Source: Chloroflexota bacterium
Lineage (GTDB): Bacteria; Chloroflexota; Anaerolineae; Anaerolineales; Villigracilaceae
Direction of reading: 5' to 3'
Assembly: GCA_021787595.1 (NCBI GenBank)
Contig: JAJYLQ010000002.1
Location: 1 to 64,000 of the forward strand
Length of the DNA stretch: 64,000 nt
Shown: positions 3,683 through 44,802 of the stretch, one piece after another
Layout of the letters: every line of letters starts with the position of its first letter
Numbering within the stretch: the first letter of the stretch is position 1
The notes under the pieces: generated by a model
Seen by the model: the letters and a program-made list of their open reading frames with translations, nothing else
Database searches by the model: none
What the model was told of the DNA's origin: nothing
Translations under genes and position numbers: made by a program

Positions 3683-4789
3683 GTGACATCCTCTTTTGAT
3701 TTGTTGGTTATCGGTGGTAGCGGTTTTGTTGGCGCAAATTTAACCCAAGCTGCTCTACACGCCGGCTTCAAGGTTGCTTATACTTACGTGGATCATAGAC
3801 TGCAATTACCTGTAAGTTCCTATCAAGTAGATCTGCAAGAAAAAAGCACACTTGAAACCTGTTTGAAAAAAACTCAACCGAAAAATATTGTGTATTGTGC
3901 TCTGCCGCGAGGCAATGAGACAAAGCATCGAATAGTAAGTATTGAAGGGGTAAAACGGACGCTAGACGCGTTAGATAAAGCGACTTATCCCAAGTTTGTA
4001 TATGTTTCTTCCAACTCTGTTTTTTCTGGCAGGAAAGGACAATATCGAGAATTAGAAAAAACAGACGCGGAACAACAGCGCGATGACTACCGCGCGTATG
4101 CGGTTACACGCGCAATTGGTGAACAGGTTGCACTGGACACCTGGTCTAATTCAATTGTTGTGCGTACCGCAGATGTCAATGGCAGAGATGTGCAAGGAAA
4201 TATAAATCGACGCCTGATAAGCCTCATTGACCAATTAGAGTCTGGTCAGGAAATTCAAAGACTCAGCCAAGCCTATATCTCGCCAACATTAGTATTACAG
4301 CGCAAAGTTAGAGTGTTGAGGGTTCTGCTCATGGCCTTTCTACCGTTTTCGCCCTCATCCCCAACCCTTCCCCCGAGTGGGGAAGGGAGTCTCCTCTCCC
4401 TTTGGGAGAGGGAAAGGGTGAGGGAGAATTGGCAGGGAGCGATTGCTCGACTTTGCGCTGTAATGTTAGTTGATAATCTTGTTGATGGCATAATGGAAAT
4501 CTTGGATGAGGACTTTGTTTATCGAGGCATTTTGCATATAGCAGGCTGTGAAAGAATAACTTATTATGAGTTTGCTTGTAAGTTGGCAAAGTTTGTTAAT
4601 GCCGATGTTTCGTTGGTAAAACCAGATCCAAGTAAAATTTGGGATTACAGCCTCGACATAAGTTTTACGCAAAGTTTGCTGAAAACAAGATTGTTGAATG
4701 TTGAAGATCAATTTAAAGGAATATTTTGTGGACAAACTTGGAGCGCCAGAAATTGTTCAATCGAATCAAATCATCCACTCGTATCTTAA
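3683..4789 (+). CDS. NAD(P)-dependent epimerase/reductase, RmlD-like, with an in-frame 59-residue repeat insertion
   Basis: The N-terminus has the nucleotide-binding glycine motif GGSGFVG (about 10-16), and YAVTRAIGE stands where YxxxK is usual, with Arg replacing Lys. SNSVFSG and the C-terminal ISPTLV..DNLVDGI region resemble dTDP-4-dehydrorhamnose reductases. Residues from about 204 to 262 are encoded by a family-A MITE-like element (4294-4465) plus a 5-bp target duplication. Removing the 177 bp restores SPTLVDNLVDGI exactly. The reading frame survives but the enzyme may be inactive. Start is GTG at 3683, five bases after the previous stop. The next gene overlaps its end by 64 bp. It would make or modify a deoxysugar for the locus. 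Confidence 0.7.
   Translation: MTSSFDLLVIGGSGFVGANLTQAALHAGFKVAYTYVDHRLQLPVSSYQVDLQEKSTLETCLKKTQPKNIVYCALPRGNETKHRIVSIEGVKRTLDALDKATYPKFVYVSSNSVFSGRKGQYRELEKTDAEQQRDDYRAYAVTRAIGEQVALDTWSNSIVVRTADVNGRDVQGNINRRLISLIDQLESGQEIQRLSQAYISPTLVLQRKVRVLRVLLMAFLPFSPSSPTLPPSGEGSLLSLWERERVRENWQGAIARLCAVMLVDNLVDGIMEILDEDFVYRGILHIAGCERITYYEFACKLAKFVNADVSLVKPDPSKIWDYSLDISFTQSLLKTRLLNVEDQFKGIFCGQTWSARNCSIESNHPLVS
4294..4465 (-). repeat. MITE-like element family A, copy 1, inside a gene
   Basis: The ends are ATTACAGCGCAAAG and its inverse CTTTGCGCTGTAAT, and a GC-rich palindromic core lies between. Direct repeats TTAGT at 4289-4293 and 4466-4470 look like a 5-bp target duplication. This copy is inverted relative to copies 2, 4 and 5 (22064, 44314, 51459). 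Its length plus the duplication is 177 bp, divisible by three, and its strand used here has no stop codon. Confidence 0.85.
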
Positions 4790-34900: not shown

Positions 34901-35012
34901 AAACCCTCCGCGTTTATTTTAACACACAGTCCCGATAAAACCAAAAAGACACCGGGAACACTTAGACTTTTCTAAATCTTCGTGAACTCTGTGTCTCTGT
35001 TGTGATGAATCC

Positions 35013-35088
35013 TGGTCGGGGTGCCGGGATTTGAACCCGGGACCTCTTGCTCCCAAAGCAAGCGCGCTACCAACTGCGCTACACCCCG
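35013..35088 (-). tRNA. tRNA-Pro (TGG), CCA encoded
   Basis: On the minus strand the acceptor stem is CGGGGTG with CACCCCG. The anticodon arm is CTTGC-TTTGGGA-GCAAG, anticodon TGG. The T-arm is CCGGG-TTCAAAT-CCCGG, and ACCA follows the acceptor. Its upstream sequence, with TAAAAT as a possible -10, is the beginning of the repeat array. Confidence 0.95.
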
Positions 35089-35793
35089 AAAACCGAATTT
35101 TATCCGGGACCTTGGCGCTGAAAGCGCCACGCCCTACCAACGGAGTTCGTGGCGACGAAGGCGCCACCACACCCCGAAAACCGAATTTTATCCGGGACCT
35201 TGGCGCTGAAAGCGCCACGCCCTACCAACGGAGTTTATGGCGGCAAAGGCGCCACCACACCCCGAAAACCGAATTTTATCCGGGACCTTGGCGCTGAAAG
35301 CGCCACGCCCTACCAACGGAGTTTATGGCGACGAAAGGCGCCACCACACCCCGAAAACCGAATTTTATCCGGGACCTTGGCGCTGAAAGCGCCACGCCCT
35401 ACCAACGGAGTTTATGGCGACGAAAGGCGCCACCACACCCCGAAAACCGAATTTTATCCGGGACCTTGGCGCTGAAAGCGCCACGCCCTACCAACGGAGT
35501 TTATGGCGGCAAAGGCGCCACCACACCCCGAAGACCAAATTTTATCTGGGACCTTGGCGCTGAAAGCGCCACGCCCTACCAACGGAGTTCGTGGCGACGA
35601 AGGCGCCACTACACCCCGAAGACCAAATTTTATCTGGGACCTTGGCGCTGAAAGCGCCACGCCCTACCAACGGAGTTTATGGCGACGAAAGGCGCCACTA
35701 CACCCCGAAGACCAAATTTTATCTGGGACCTTGGCGCTGAAAGCGCCACGCCCTACCAACGGAGTTCGTGGCGGCGAAGGCGCCACCACACCC
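35089..35793. repeat. Array of eight 88/89-bp tandem repeats next to tRNA-Pro
   Basis: The word CTTGGCGCTGAAAGCGCCAC begins at 35111, 35199, 35287, 35376, 35465, 35553, 35641 and 35730. Each unit has the hairpin GGCGCT-GAA-AGCGCC, then CCTACCAACGGAGTT, a second hairpin ending GGCGCCAC, and finally ACACCCCG, the last bases of which match the 5' acceptor strand of tRNA-Pro. Units 1-4 carry AAAACCGAATTTTATCCGGG; units 6-8 carry AAGACCAAATTTTATCTGGG. No spacers separate the units, and the unit length excludes a coding repeat. The 34901-35872 gap holds this array and the tRNA. Confidence 0.95.
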
Positions 35794-35872
35794 GCGGACT
35801 CAGCACGTTTCTGCGTGCCGGGCACGACGAGTATAATGCGAAGGATTATTCCCCGTCAAGCACAGGATTTCG

Positions 35873-40304: not shown

Positions 40305-40347
40305 AAAAAGGCTCATTAGGAGTTGCCGTGATTCTGTACACGGACCC

Positions 40348-40400
40348 TGAACCCTCATAAAGCAAAGGGCGTAGGGCGCACTGAAAGTACGCAGTACAAG
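40348..40400. repeat. CCCTGAACCCTCA repeat copy
   Basis: CCCTGAACCCTCATAAAGC with AAGGGCGTAGGGCGC, related to 27457 and to the nested part of 11426-11609. The 637-bp gap 40305-40941 contains no gene: after this copy, 40410-40560 is low-complexity sequence built of GCGAATTTCGCGAATT-like words. Confidence 0.5.
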
Positions 40401-40625
40401 CAGGGCGTTGCCGCGGATTGCACGGATTCACACGGAAAAAGCTTTTTCGGCTCTCCCGCTTTTAACGGGAAAGCCAAATCCTCAGCCGCGAATTTCGCGA
40501 ATTTGCACGAATTTTTTGGAGACATTCGCGACAATTCGTGGAATTCGTGGCAAAGAGCTGTTAAGTTTATTGCTCGTCCCGCTGGAAACGGTAGAGCCTT
40601 TAAAAGTCATGAACCAGTTGGGTCC

Positions 40626-40755
40626 TGTCATTCTGAGCGACCGCAGGGAGCGAAGAATCTCGCTTTTCAAGCCAGTTTTCCATCAAAATTTGAGATTCTT
40701 CGTGGCGCCCCGCGTGTGCGGGATCTTCGACTTGGCGCCACTCCTCGCAATGACA
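40626..40755. repeat. Hybrid palindromic repeat, family B-like
   Basis: The left end TGTCATTCTGAGCGA and the right end CTCGCAATGACA come from two related repeat types. GCGAAGAATCTC and GAGATTCTTCG form an internal inverted pair. Confidence 0.65.
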
Positions 40756-40810
40756 TATCAAGGCGACAAATGCTACAATGGAAGTGGTGAGGAAATTTGA
40801 TCCATTTACC

Positions 40811-40921
40811 ATTACAGCGCAAGGTCAGGCTCAAGCCGCCGTCTCGAAGATCCCGCGCAGCGGGACCGGCGGCGTTCAGGCTGCGCCGAGGACGGCGCAG
40901 CGAGCCACTTTGCGCTGTAAT
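40811..40921 (+). repeat. MITE-like element family A, short variant (left border of the island)
   Basis: Ends ATTACAGCGCAAGG and CTTTGCGCTGTAAT as in the other copies, but the core is different and shorter (111 bp) with its own hairpin (CCGCCGTCTC.. / CCGGCGG). No clear target duplication. The island genes begin 21 bp further on. Confidence 0.8.
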
Positions 40922-40941
40922 ACTAATGCAGGAGGCTCATC

Positions 40942-42174
40942 ATGAAGTTCAGAATGATTTGCATGATCGTCTTACTGTTATCATCTGCTTGCGCGAATTC
41001 TGTGGCGCTTTCACCAACAGCAACCGCTCAAAACGCAACACCTACCATCACCCCATCAGCTAGTCCGATTCCATCTCCTACCGAAGCATCAACTCCAACC
41101 CCAATAACCGTCGATGTCAATGTCTTATTCCAATCCAACCCCGACTTTGCCAAGGCGGTCCTGGCTCAAGATCCCAATGCCGCCAAAGATTTTACTCAAG
41201 TCGGTGATAAGTATTATCTCAATGTCAACGGGACACAGACCGAGATTGATCCCTCAACTGCCGCAGTCAACGTTGATATCTATGGTCACAAACTAACTGT
41301 CACCGACAGCGCCAATCCCAACCCTTTGACCATCAAAGACAAACAGGGAAATATCATTTCATATGTTGCCGAATCAAAGATCTATGGCGCAGACAGCCAA
41401 GGCAACTCCATCGTCATCAAAGACTTTCCGGCTCAGTGGTTCCAGGTGATAAAACCCAATCATCCTGTTGATATGACTGCTTCCCAGGATCAACTAAAAA
41501 CTCAACTTGAAACCGCTATTAGCGATCCTGTTCAAGTGACAATAGATCAAGTCCAAAGCGGCGAATTAGCACAGTCAGTCTTATTAAGCGGTTTAGTTCA
41601 ACCATTTCCAAAAGGCTGGAAATATACAGGATTTGCAATCAATAAAACCGGCGACTCGATTTATCTTTATACTTCAAAAAAAATCTTTGTTCCTTTTTTT
41701 GCCGAAACTACTCTTGAAGACGGTACAAAAATCGGTATTCGAGAATGGAAAATTTGGAACCCAAGCGATCTGACCGGCTGGAACCAAAAAGATTTTTCCG
41801 TCTCGGATCAACTTGATCATAGCCAAATATTACTCGGTCAAACAGGAGTCGGTCAGGAAAACTTAACCCAAACAGGAAATCAAGCTTTTGTTGATGCAAT
41901 TATGAACGATAAAAACCTTCAACCTAATTTTTATATATCAGCGCCGGATCAAACTTTAATAGCAGGAAGCTCACCAATGACTGACCAGCCCTCGATCCTG
42001 GCTTTGAAAAATCTTCCGGGCAATGATCCGACGCAGATTGGTTTTGTGAACAATCAAATTAATGATGCAAAGAAACATTTTGGTGATGGTGACTGGCAAA
42101 CAATAAATTTTTCTCCACCACTTGATTTAGTTCAAGCACTTCAAAGCATCGTTTGGGAGATATATTTTTCTTAA
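40942..42174 (+). CDS. Secreted lipoprotein of unknown function
   Basis: The signal peptide ends in the lipobox LLSSAC (Cys17). A Pro/Thr/Ser-rich linker runs to about residue 55. The remaining 350 residues are polar and beta-rich, with repeated N/D/Q-rich turns and no family I recognise. Codons and bases are AT-richer than the flanking genes, especially in the second half. ATG 40942 has CAGGAGG upstream. It lies in the element-bounded island, so it may be imported. Confidence 0.65.
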   Translation: MKFRMICMIVLLLSSACANSVALSPTATAQNATPTITPSASPIPSPTEASTPTPITVDVNVLFQSNPDFAKAVLAQDPNAAKDFTQVGDKYYLNVNGTQTEIDPSTAAVNVDIYGHKLTVTDSANPNPLTIKDKQGNIISYVAESKIYGADSQGNSIVIKDFPAQWFQVIKPNHPVDMTASQDQLKTQLETAISDPVQVTIDQVQSGELAQSVLLSGLVQPFPKGWKYTGFAINKTGDSIYLYTSKKIFVPFFAETTLEDGTKIGIREWKIWNPSDLTGWNQKDFSVSDQLDHSQILLGQTGVGQENLTQTGNQAFVDAIMNDKNLQPNFYISAPDQTLIAGSSPMTDQPSILALKNLPGNDPTQIGFVNNQINDAKKHFGDGDWQTINFSPPLDLVQALQSIVWEIYFS

Positions 42175-42335
42175 AAATTTCTTTTCTTATTGGTTGAATT
42201 CTTTAGCATTTTATCTTAGGCGATATGGATTTATTAAAAGCTTCGTGACGGTGTAAAGTATTCATTTTGTAGGTTATAGTCCGTTGACTTAATAAGAAAA
42301 ATATTGTTTCATTGATTCATGGCTTCATTGTCAAT

Positions 42336-42707
42336 ATGAAATACTTAAGATTAAACGATATTGATTGCTATAAGAGAGCATTGAATCTTTCAAATTATGT
42401 TTGGAAAATAGTAGCCGATTGGGAATGGTTTGTGAAAAAAACCGTTGGAGCTCAATTTGCTGAAGCGATCGATTCAATCTCTGCCAATATTGCTGAAGGA
42501 TTTGGAAGATACAGTAAGAAAGATAAAATAAAGTTTTATCACTATAGTTTCGGATCTGTTAAAGAGTCTTGTGACTGGAATTTAAAATCCAAAACAAGAG
42601 GATTGCTTTCAGAAAAAAACTATGTTTACATATTAAATGAACTACAAAAACTTCCTAAAGAGATTAATCAGTTAATTCAATACACCAACCAAAAACTCCG
42701 TGATTAA
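42336..42707 (+). CDS. Four-helix-bundle protein (23S rRNA intervening-sequence type)
   Basis: The family hallmark ISANIAEGFGRYSKKDK stands at about 51-67, and CYKRALNLSNYVWKIVADW at the start and INQLIQYTNQKLRD at the end fit the helices. Such 120-residue proteins are common, function unknown, in many bacteria including Patescibacteria, and were first seen in 23S rRNA intervening sequences; no rRNA is near. I use the ATG at 42336. The gene and its flanks are strikingly AT-rich compared with the rest of the window, supporting transfer. Confidence 0.82.
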   Translation: MKYLRLNDIDCYKRALNLSNYVWKIVADWEWFVKKTVGAQFAEAIDSISANIAEGFGRYSKKDKIKFYHYSFGSVKESCDWNLKSKTRGLLSEKNYVYILNELQKLPKEINQLIQYTNQKLRD

Positions 42708-42773
42708 CTCTAACAATGAAACAATGTAACCATGAAACAATTGATTTCTATTTTTTGCTATACTTTTTCTATG

Positions 42774-44312
42774 CGCTTCAAGTTGTATCTAAAAGGGGTG
42801 ATTATCTTTTTATCAATATTGATCGGGTTGACTTATCTTAATCCTTCTTCTGTTGTATGGGCAGGTTGCGGCTGGAATGCAGAAACCGGTAGCTGCGGCA
42901 GCTGTTCTTGTGTTGGTTGCGGCACCTGTACTTGTGTAGAAAATGGACCGGGTAGCTGCTCTACTGATACTAGCGGTTGTTATAGTTGCGGCGGCGGCGG
43001 TGGCGGAAATCCAACCGCAACTCCTTTACCATATGCAACTGCGACTATACCAGTACCATCAAATACTCCTTTTCCAACCTCAATCAATATTACTCAGAAT
43101 CCTTTAACACCAACTCCTATCTATAATCTTTGCGGCAATGGAACATATTGTAATTATGGATATTATTGTTGTCTAAGCGGTACAGCCTGTTGTCCTGTCG
43201 GCTCGCTCTCTCCAACCGGAAACGGCGGACCGACTGCCACGCCAACCCCGATCCCTGTTCCCAACTGTATGAATCTTTCAGGTCCATCGACGCTGACTGC
43301 CGGTCAAAAAGGGACTTATACGGCAGACTTTTCCTCTCCTCAGGGCAATCTTAGCGGAGAAATTTTTGCCGGGCAAAACGGCACGGGAGTCTGGTATCCG
43401 GGAAATAAAGCCATTAGCGGCAATTCCGGCAGCCTGTCTTTTGACTGGACGCCGACAGCAGCCGGTACCTATGATGTTTTATGTCGTGCCTGGAACGACG
43501 CCATCGCCGAATGCCGCGGGAAAGCCGACTATGTCAGCGGACCTCCCGTATATACTTGTGCCGGTCCAAATTCCAGCATGGTCGTAACTGTCGTTGCACC
43601 CACGGCAACGCCGACTCCGACTCCGGGCCCGTGGATCAAGCTGAAAAATACCTCTTTTTATTCAGGTAACGGCTTGACAGACTTAATTCCTCTTGTACCG
43701 ACAGCCTATGATGCCGACGATGACTCCAATCCCTACTTTATTACCGGTGGCACAGGAGCCGGCCTGACAGCTGCCTCATCTCTCAATCTGACCGCCATCA
43801 ACCAATCTGCCAAGCCAAACGGCAGCAACTGGTCCGCCTCCTCCTACAGCCCGACAGTCACTTTCACCCCGGCCAGTTTCCTTAAATACGTTAAGACAAG
43901 AAAAACTTATACGACGATCACCGACCTTAACGATATCGTCAGTATCGATCACGACGGCATCTACTTTTACAATGGCAGCAGTCCGGTAACCATCGACACC
44001 ACCCAGACGATCACCGACTACAATACCGTCCTGATCACCAGTGGGGAAGTTGATATCAATAGCGATTTCAATCCAACAAAATCGATTGCCATCGTCGCCG
44101 ACCGGATCTCCTTTGGATCGGGCATGAATCAGGCCAAAGGGATATTCATCGCCAATACGGTCACCGTCGCCAACTCCACCAACGGCGGCGGCCTGAAGAT
44201 CATCGGCAACCTGGTCGCCCAAACCGGCCTGACCGACAGCCGGACGCCAGCAGATCTTTTTCAGCCGACGATCTTTTCTTCACAGCGCGGTCGTGTTTTT
44301 ATTCTGCTATAA
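42774..44312 (+). CDS. Large secreted Cys-rich surface protein, Patescibacteria-like
   Basis: A signal peptide ends near VVWA|GCG. Two cysteine-rich segments (CGSCSCVGCGTCTC, and CNYGYYCCLSGTACC) are separated by Pro/Thr linkers with the repeated word TATPTP. A beta-sandwich-like domain follows (about 160-280), then a C-terminal repeat domain with IVSIDHDGIYFYNGSS and KSIAIVADRISFGSG. Tails of that kind are familiar from surface proteins of candidate-phylum (CPR) bacteria. The start at ATG 42774 is preceded by TATACT at a spacing that suits a leaderless transcript; an in-frame ATG at 42732 is an alternative. It ends 2 bp before a family-A element. Confidence 0.65.
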   Translation, partial: RFKLYLKGVIIFLSILIGLTYLNPSSVVWAGCGWNAETGSCGSCSCVGCGTCTCVENGPGSCSTDTSGCYSCGGGGGGNPTATPLPYATATIPVPSNTPFPTSINITQNPLTPTPIYNLCGNGTYCNYGYYCCLSGTACCPVGSLSPTGNGGPTATPTPIPVPNCMNLSGPSTLTAGQKGTYTADFSSPQGNLSGEIFAGQNGTGVWYPGNKAISGNSGSLSFDWTPTAAGTYDVLCRAWNDAIAECRGKADYVSGPPVYTCAGPNSSMVVTVVAPTATPTPTPGPWIKLKNTSFYSGNGLTDLIPLVPTAYDADDDSNPYFITGGTGAGLTAASSLNLTAINQSAKPNGSNWSASSYSPTVTFTPASFLKYVKTRKTYTTITDLNDIVSIDHDGIYFYNGSSPVTIDTTQTITDYNTVLITSGEVDINSDFNPTKSIAIVADRISFGSGMNQAKGIFIANTVTVANSTNGGGLKIIGNLVAQTGLTDSRTPADLFQPTIFSSQRGRVFILL

Positions 44313-44313
44313 C

Positions 44314-44485
44314 ATTACAGCGCAAGGTCAAGCAATCGTTCCCTGCCAATTCTCCCTCACCCTTTCCCTCCCCCAAAGGGAGAGGAGACTCCCTTCCCCA
44401 TTCGGGGGAAGGGTTGGGGATGAGGGCGAAAACGGTAGAAAAGCCATGAGCGGAACCCTCAACGCTCTAACTTTGCGCTGTAATA
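44314..44485 (+). repeat. MITE-like element family A, copy 4 (right border of the island)
   Basis: Full-length copy. ATAAC on the left and ATAAT on the right are a 4/5 match to a target duplication. It follows the stop of the surface protein gene directly. Confidence 0.85.
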
Positions 44486-44514
44486 ATAATGAATCCAGAG
44501 AAAGGCAGGAAGAA

Positions 44515-44706
44515 ATGAAATTTACTGTCGAGTATGAACAGGAAGAGGATGGCCGCTGGCTGGCTGAAGTGAAGGAATTGCCGGGCGTATTGGCTTATGG
44601 GAAAAATCCCGATGATGCCGCCGCTCACGCGCAGGCGCTGGCATTGCGTGTGATCGCGGATCGTCTTGAGAATGGCGAAAGCACTCCATTCTGCATTTCA
44701 TGGTAA
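44515..44706 (+). CDS. hicB: HicB-family antitoxin-like protein, orphan
   Basis: 63 residues: FTVEYEQEEDGRWLAEVKELPGVLAYGKNPDDA is the HicB beta-alpha fold pattern. HicB normally neutralises the HicA mRNase, but no hicA is seen upstream or downstream: 44707-44802 holds no open frame with the HicA lysine-histidine pattern. ATG 44515 follows AGGAAGAA. It may be a solitary remnant or part of a partner lost when the element inserted, 30 bp upstream. Confidence 0.7.
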   Translation: MKFTVEYEQEEDGRWLAEVKELPGVLAYGKNPDDAAAHAQALALRVIADRLENGESTPFCISW

Positions 44707-44802
44707 TGAAGAGATCGGACCGAAGATGTTGGCAAGGGCGGCAAAAGTAACGGGCCGAAACCTGAAGACTTATAAAACAATCAGGAAAATCTTCGACTTT
44801 CC

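Follow-up and report, generated by a model that had tools for sequence, protein, structure and literature searches.

Probable recurrent capture of Patescibacterial pilus-associated surface genes in a Villigracilaceae genome of the Chloroflexota

The Chloroflexota bacterium of assembly GCA_021787595.1 (Anaerolineales, Villigracilaceae) carries, on contig JAJYLQ010000002.1, three consecutive genes between two short repeats that are designated here as family A. In this study, the first 64,000 nucleotides of that contig (the window) were analyzed, with emphasis on the island at positions 40,811 to 44,485, which an earlier note on this DNA had described as two family-A copies enclosing three foreign-looking genes. 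Both elements and the three open reading frames (ORFs) were recovered as described (Table 1). The genes encode a lipoprotein (gene 1), a four-helix-bundle protein (gene 2) and a secreted Cys-rich modular surface protein (gene 3). The AT-richer composition that had been ascribed to the entire 3.4 kb held only in part. The guanine-plus-cytosine (GC) content fell to 34.9% at 42001-43000, which was the lowest 1-kb value in the window profile, with 42% in gene 1, 31% in gene 2 and 43% in the first third of gene 3, but the last 1.1 kb of gene 3 (52-55%) resembled the flanks. The AT-rich shift is real but non-uniform, being confined to about 41.0-43.2 kb.

Table 1. Features of the island and its right-hand border in the window (position 1 is the first nucleotide of the contig).
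Feature	Position	Strand	Remarks
Family-A element, 111-nt	40811-40921 (with flanks 40806..40926)	+	TTAC 40806-40809 / CTAA 40923-40926; possible recombination scar
Gene 1, lipoprotein	40942..42174	+	Lipobox LLLSSACA, Pro/Thr linker, AGGAGG Shine-Dalgarno; relatives only in the window's genus
Gene 2, four-helix-bundle protein (23S rRNA intervening sequence protein family), Patescibacteria-type	42336..42707	+	31% GC; ORF list start 42312
Putative leaderless-type promoter of gene 3	42741..42770	+	TATACT 42759-42764, 6 nt 5' of ATG
Gene 3, secreted Cys-rich modular surface protein	42771..44312	+	ORF list start 42732; alignments, start region, predicted fold
Ig-like module of gene 3	43239..43604	+	355/366 nt same as L069 (JAJYIX010000028.1)
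Family-A element, 171-nt	44314-44484 (with flanks 44309..44489)	+	Own ATAA/ATAA; on gene 3 stop codon
HicB-like antitoxin remnant	44515..44706	+	Background composition; weak Pfam match, below cut-off

The gene 3 protein comprises a Cys-rich head, PTATPTP linkers, an immunoglobulin (Ig)-like module and a beta-rich C-domain, and alignment revealed the same order in its relatives L069 and L071. When the whole collection was scanned with gene 3, five relatives were detected, the best of which was L069, located on a 16-kb contig of genome G313 (54% over residues 9-515). At the DNA level, 349 of 360 nucleotides at 43241-43600 were identical to L069, with a sharp drop on both sides to about 50-70% beyond. 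The complete Ig-like module differed from L069 at 11 of 366 nucleotides (97% identical), and ten of these differences fell at third codon positions with a single amino acid changed; this near-synonymous pattern indicates purifying selection, without telling in which lineage it acted. Among 298 genomes of the window's class, gene 3 matched anywhere in only three, namely the window's own genome (G000), G148 of the same family and, marginally, G062, and as a whole gene it was found in no other genome of those 298. Moreover, the same Ig-like module was present in records of Candidatus (Ca.) Woesebacteria and Ca. Roizmanbacteria, which we take to be filed under Microgenomates. The genome of G313 measures 1.1 Mb, and sizes of 0.5 to 2.0 Mb were recorded for the 96 members of its phylum that were listed in full. 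To our knowledge, Patescibacteria is the only bacterial phylum with so many species and genomes that small, and we read the phylum of G313 as Patescibacteria on the basis of the small genomes and the named relatives. In addition, a Micrarchaeota record (L070, 6645-8606) encoded a long secreted protein, glycosidase-like by eye, that ended in the Ig-like module (65%); either the module crosses domains or that contig was mis-binned.

The genomic setting of the small-genome relatives connects this protein with pili. L069, L071 and L135 (G473, of the same phylum as G313) retained an intact C-terminal tail and were followed directly by a PilX-like gene, a call that rests on a match to PF14341 (PilX_N) below its cut-off, and the next two genes after it were similar by eye in L071 and L135. 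The donor-type genes thereby resemble the PilX-like or type IV pilus clusters of Patescibacteria, but the recipient copies differ from such clusters in lacking both the adjoining pilin gene and the C-terminal tail. In the window, the gene 3 protein ends in ..SSQRGRVFILL and is devoid of the donor-type tail ..LLP..S...Y.WQQ.Q, which forms the last 15-20 residues. The start of gene 3 is likely position 42771 and not the upstream start of the ORF list. The hexamer TTGATT at 42741-42746 would be a poor -35 element (12-nt spacing), and a TATnCT box 6-7 nt 5' of the ATG, with no Shine-Dalgarno sequence, was observed in four of the six gene-3-type genes compared (gene 3, C37, G148 and L069), the corresponding sequences being TACTAT in C60 and TAGCTT in L071. 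Furthermore, 23 of 40 upstream bases agreed in register between gene 3 and L069, a value reached by 0.24% of shuffles. The predicted fold of the gene 3 protein was of low overall confidence, with a mean predicted local distance difference test (pLDDT) score of 47, and its interpretation was limited to the Ig-like module and part of the C-domain. Residues 179-288 were predicted to form an Ig-like sandwich (pLDDT 38-84 by block, best near 180-200) and the C-domain to be beta-rich; the best PDB matches of the predicted Ig-like module were CARDB-type and other Ig-like domains. The combination of signal peptide, Cys-rich head, linkers and modeled Ig-like module speaks for an extracellular binding protein. 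Carriage by a virus or plasmid was discarded, as neither gene 3 nor gene 1 had a relative in IMG/VR and gene 3 had none in PLSDB.

Gene 2 was confirmed as a four-helix-bundle protein by PF05635 (72.1 bits, cut-off 33.8, 5e-20) and TIGR02436 (75.3 bits, cut-off 24, 4e-21). It is therefore like the 23S rRNA intervening sequence proteins in scoring above both cut-offs, but it differs from them in its position between surface-protein genes and in belonging to a Patescibacteria-side subgroup. Matches were obtained in 87 of 239 genomes of G313's phylum, with the best at 72% (G410) followed by 67, 64, 64, 62 and 62%, and the nine further rows below G410 lay at 47-67%. In the window's class, 127 of 249 genomes matched, the best besides the gene itself reaching 42%. 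In the gene 2 tree, built without L125 and L128, which duplicate L105 and L108, and without L069, in which no match was obtained, gene 2 stood among the Patescibacteria rows, and the nine Anaerolineae rows lay across a branch with 100/98 support; inner support was moderate (91/92 and 82/85). A Cys-rich protein gene adjoined gene 2 in one of the eight donor-phylum loci read (G500).

Full-length relatives of gene 1 were restricted to G223, a member of the window's genus (35-42% identical). A search of the window's class with gene 1 gave matches in 27 of 298 genomes; outside G000 and G223 these matches covered only residues 1-141 at 25.5 bits or less, for which reason they were not counted as relatives. 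The gene-1 family profile matched nine of 370 genomes of G313's phylum, G313 not being among them, and among the matches listed only the signal peptide and the Pro/Thr stretch were covered (profile positions up to 123), so that a Patescibacterial gene 1 was ruled out. By its relatives, gene 1 is a genus-level gene. In G223, the gene-1 relatives stood without a Cys-rich partner. The gene-1-type lipoprotein genes of this genome (L083-L088) were multi-copy and broke the assembly, with identical 70-nt overlaps at contig ends.

The site itself was examined in related genomes. In the sister genome G289, the M50 protein was 97% identical and the flank DNA about 91%, and the alignment with the window ran up to 40309 and resumed from 44800, leaving a differing stretch of about 40310-44800 that is wider than the two elements. 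Between the counterpart points, G289 holds a dehydrogenase gene, which we take to be of the NDH-2 type, and the more distant genus mate G299 holds the same type of gene at the site. In G130, of another genus, the M50 and DUF6504 genes lie about 116 bp apart. The site was thus island-free at M50/DUF6504 in all three genomes, and the three island genes had no match in any of the nine relative loci examined. The NDH-2 gene was not found in the window's genome, which is an estimated 99.6% complete, and a search of nine genomes gave seven matches, strong in G289, G299, G305, G027 and G223 and weak in two. Only genes 2 and 3 combine outside nearest relatives with an island-free site in related genomes. 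The Patescibacterial link and foreign origin suggested in the earlier note were supported for genes 2 and 3, which have their nearest matches in G313's phylum (72% for the gene 2 protein, 97% DNA identity for the gene 3 module), but not for gene 1, whose listed matches there were confined to the signal peptide and Pro/Thr stretch. As judged from sequence comparison, the island appears to be a real, foreign patch of horizontally acquired DNA and, since gene 1 is genus-level and not Patescibacterial, a mosaic.

Gene 3 was not the only copy of its type in the recipient family. The window's genome contained two further gene-3-type loci, on contigs C60 (187 kb) and C37 (24 kb), each behind a lipoprotein gene. 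The C-domain of the C60 gene shared 92.7% DNA identity with L069 over 531 nt, and the C37 gene shared 88.9% with L069 over 288 columns. The C37 lipoprotein had a host-like lipoprotein signal. In G313, the gene that immediately precedes the L069 Cys-rich gene shares, in its C-terminal half, 67-68% identity with the C37 lipoprotein body, so that both neighbours are common to C37 and L069 in the same order. Moreover, G148, of another genus of the same family, carried at least three gene-3-type copies, of which one follows a lipoprotein gene and two lie at contig ends. The six recipient copies (window, C60, C37 and three of G148) all ended before the tail, with four distinct points of truncation, and none had a pilin gene adjoining; the window copy is followed by the family-A element and the HicB-like ORF. 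Shared ancestry was considered for the lipoproteins of the different loci, which were only weakly similar by blastp and profile comparison, mostly in signal peptide and linker. The C37 Cys-rich gene is truncated by a sequence beginning ACTGAAAGCGGGCACAAATTGCGG, and 31 nt of this sequence are found again, in inverted orientation, immediately downstream of the C60 copy (L090 96-126, L089 7856-7886); this may be one end of a further mobile repeat or a site of inversion. On account of the inverted recurrence, DNA inversion was considered as the origin of the truncated C37 and C60 copies. The three G148 copies share the same extra end peptide, and short GACTCGTT-type units are arrayed behind them (L091 7700-8130, L092 and L093 600-800). 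The rpiB gene lies near gene-3-type or gene-1-type genes in G148, G223 and L069; the L069 RpiB looked unlike the others by eye, and the proximity was taken as coincidence.

The elements at the island edges belong to a repeat family whose end pattern, ATTACAGCGCAA, gave 69 forward and 64 reverse matches (133 in all) across 4.08 Mb of genome, against 0 for the reversed control; the 171-nt form accounted for 40 scored copies. Among the 34 of roughly 66 element copies taken in, 32 had equal 4-nt NTAN flanks, separated from the inverted ends by one base (shuffled mean 6.1, maximum 15). Being short, multi-copy and bounded by inverted terminal repeats and target duplications, family A consists of native repeats that are miniature inverted-repeat transposable element (MITE)-like, with 4-bp target duplications. 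The copy at 44314 lies on the gene 3 stop codon with ATAA on both sides, and this duplication of its own marks it as a solo insertion. The copy at 40811, of the 111-nt subtype, is one of the two without equal flanks (TTAC/CTAA), and a near copy on contig C9 (few differences by eye) has TTAT/TTAT. Since both flanks of the 40811 copy resemble genuine target sites, the simple reading is that two copies recombined and deleted the intervening DNA. The 40811 copy would then be a possible scar of element-element recombination, and the fact that the island stands where an NDH-2 gene was lost fits this reading without proving it. These data bear directly on the proposal in the earlier note that a composite unit had carried the three genes in. 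Two directly oriented elements that bound the genes at a distance of 3.4 kb are what a composite transposon would present; however, the outer flanks (TTAC left of 40811, ATAA right of 44314), which had already been said not to match, provide no single outer target duplication, the 44314 copy inserted alone, the elements are of different subtypes (111 and 171 nt), and no transposase or integrase was recognized among the island genes by the Pfam and NCBIfam scans, no search aimed at a family-A transposase having been made. Delivery as a composite transposon was rejected on the target duplications and retains very little probability.

The direction in which genes 2 and 3 moved deserves closer consideration, and several observations weigh against capture of the island genes from the small-genome phylum. 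Besides the genus-level standing of gene 1, close relatives of gene 3 were rare in the putative donor phylum, where the C-domain matched six of 379 genomes and only G313 closely. The 1181-aa gene upstream of L069 was found in one of 96 genomes of the phylum, G313 itself, and is uninformative as a phylum marker. The near-donor sequence is a low-coverage (1.5x) contig of a metagenome-assembled genome. For gene 2, a one-clade test grouping it with the Anaerolineae rows was not rejected (p 0.112). Furthermore, the C-domain tree, from which the distant sequences L100, L101, L102, L135 and L136 were left out, placed L069 among the recipient copies and so leaves the direction unsettled. This placement, together with the several pairs of lipoprotein and Cys-rich genes in the recipient family, is what would be expected if the small-genome lineage had taken the genes from the window's lineage. 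We consider such a reverse transfer improbable. The donor-type copies L069, L071 and L135 keep the tail and precede a PilX-like gene, and truncation is seen in each of the six recipient copies. The Ig-like module recurs in the Woesebacteria and Roizmanbacteria records, and no other genome of the recipient class yielded it. Moreover, gene 2 falls inside the donor phylum, and the leaderless-type start was kept. Flow from the small-genome phylum is favoured by the donor tail and PilX-like neighbour, the leaderless-type start and the placement of gene 2, and the transfer would accordingly have run from Patescibacteria to the window's lineage. A chimeric assembly, in which Patescibacterial reads were joined into the window contig, might explain why part of the island is nearly identical to a metagenomic contig from the small-genome phylum and why repeats lie at the island edges. 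It would nevertheless need two separate misjoins, one of them in unique DNA between genes 1 and 2, and it has little probability given that the right element sits on the gene 3 stop codon with a perfect target duplication and that similar gene pairs lie beside other genes on C60 and C37, and in G148. Chloroflexota and Patescibacteria are described as sister phyla in PMC13293708, which would suit vertical descent from their common ancestor, but for the Ig-like module this reading is refuted by the 97% identity of its 366 nt of DNA and by the restriction of matches to three of the 298 class genomes, and it retains next to no probability.

Taken together, recurrent capture of Patescibacterial pilus-associated surface genes, with genes 2 and 3 of the island coming from the phylum of G313, is the probable explanation. 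An ultra-small bacterium of that phylum would have supplied both genes, perhaps during close cell contact, and gene 3 would have brought its own start region along. In the donor, the gene 3-type protein would be a secreted, Cys-rich, multi-domain, adhesin-like protein, and it is probably pilus-associated because it is encoded directly before a PilX-like pilin gene. In the recipient, gene 3 would have come to lie behind a lipoprotein gene with its C-terminal tail and pilin partner lost, and like captures would have occurred elsewhere in the window's genome and in a second genus of its family. The 44314 element would have inserted later and alone at the gene 3 stop codon, and the 40811 element would represent the scar of an element-element recombination that removed the NDH-2 gene. 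The cut recipient version may be a secreted or lipoprotein-linked surface protein, or else a decaying remnant, and gene 3 might be expressed and used as a surface adhesin or decoy. An extension of this idea, which we regard as unlikely, is that the recipients gained protection from their own parasites: pilus-adhesin genes of resident Patescibacteria, captured with the leaderless-type start kept and the tail lost and placed beside lipoproteins, would yield binding modules that mask or occupy the parasite's attachment sites.

The hosts of most Patescibacteria are unknown. Near-identical surface-gene modules in an ultra-small bacterium and a specific larger one would offer a sequence-based pointer to physical contact, and the tiny neighbours that would have served as gene sources may live on the cells of the larger bacterium. 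If this is true, a partner with a larger genome received Patescibacterial surface genes on more than one occasion. Gene transfer between Patescibacteria and other phyla has been published (PMC12455944), and the part of that report available to us resembles the present case in describing single-gene exchange across phyla linked to putative symbiont-host contact. It differs in that its table counts transfers into Patescibacteria, the term Chloroflexota having 0 occurrences in that part of the text, and in that its gene pairs differ by 3.9-34.5%, whereas here the recipient has the larger genome, the product is a surface protein and one module is 3% different. Moreover, two studies report that episymbiosis requires type IV pili for adhesion to the host (PMC12102498) and that these pili are essential in it (PMC11665869). 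A co-occurrence network, as given in the accessible part of PMC10943839, links Microgenomatia with Anaerolineae genera and Ca. Villigracilis; it is a parallel to the present case and not a match. No report of Patescibacterial surface genes in Chloroflexota was found in searches of the openly licensed PMC literature.

Family A itself also has features of interest. It resembles MITEs with 4-bp YTAR-like duplications in being short, with inverted ends and 4-bp NTAN duplications, but differs from them in having at least three interior types that share the same ends. MITEs with YTAR-like target duplications correspond to IS701-type targets, and the mobilizer of family A may be an IS701-type enzyme, which is a guess on our part. 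The interiors (171, 111 and 110 nt) each occurred with proper target duplications (L133 1391-1501, L134 1469-1578), so the ends alone would seem to suffice for movement. Five elements (at 4294, 22064, 40811, 44314 and 51459) form a local cluster in the window, where about one per 62 kb is expected from the 133 end matches in 4.08 Mb. Elsewhere in the window, seven tandem units of about 88 nt occupy 34993-35822, with copies of a 300-nt frame 64-94% alike.

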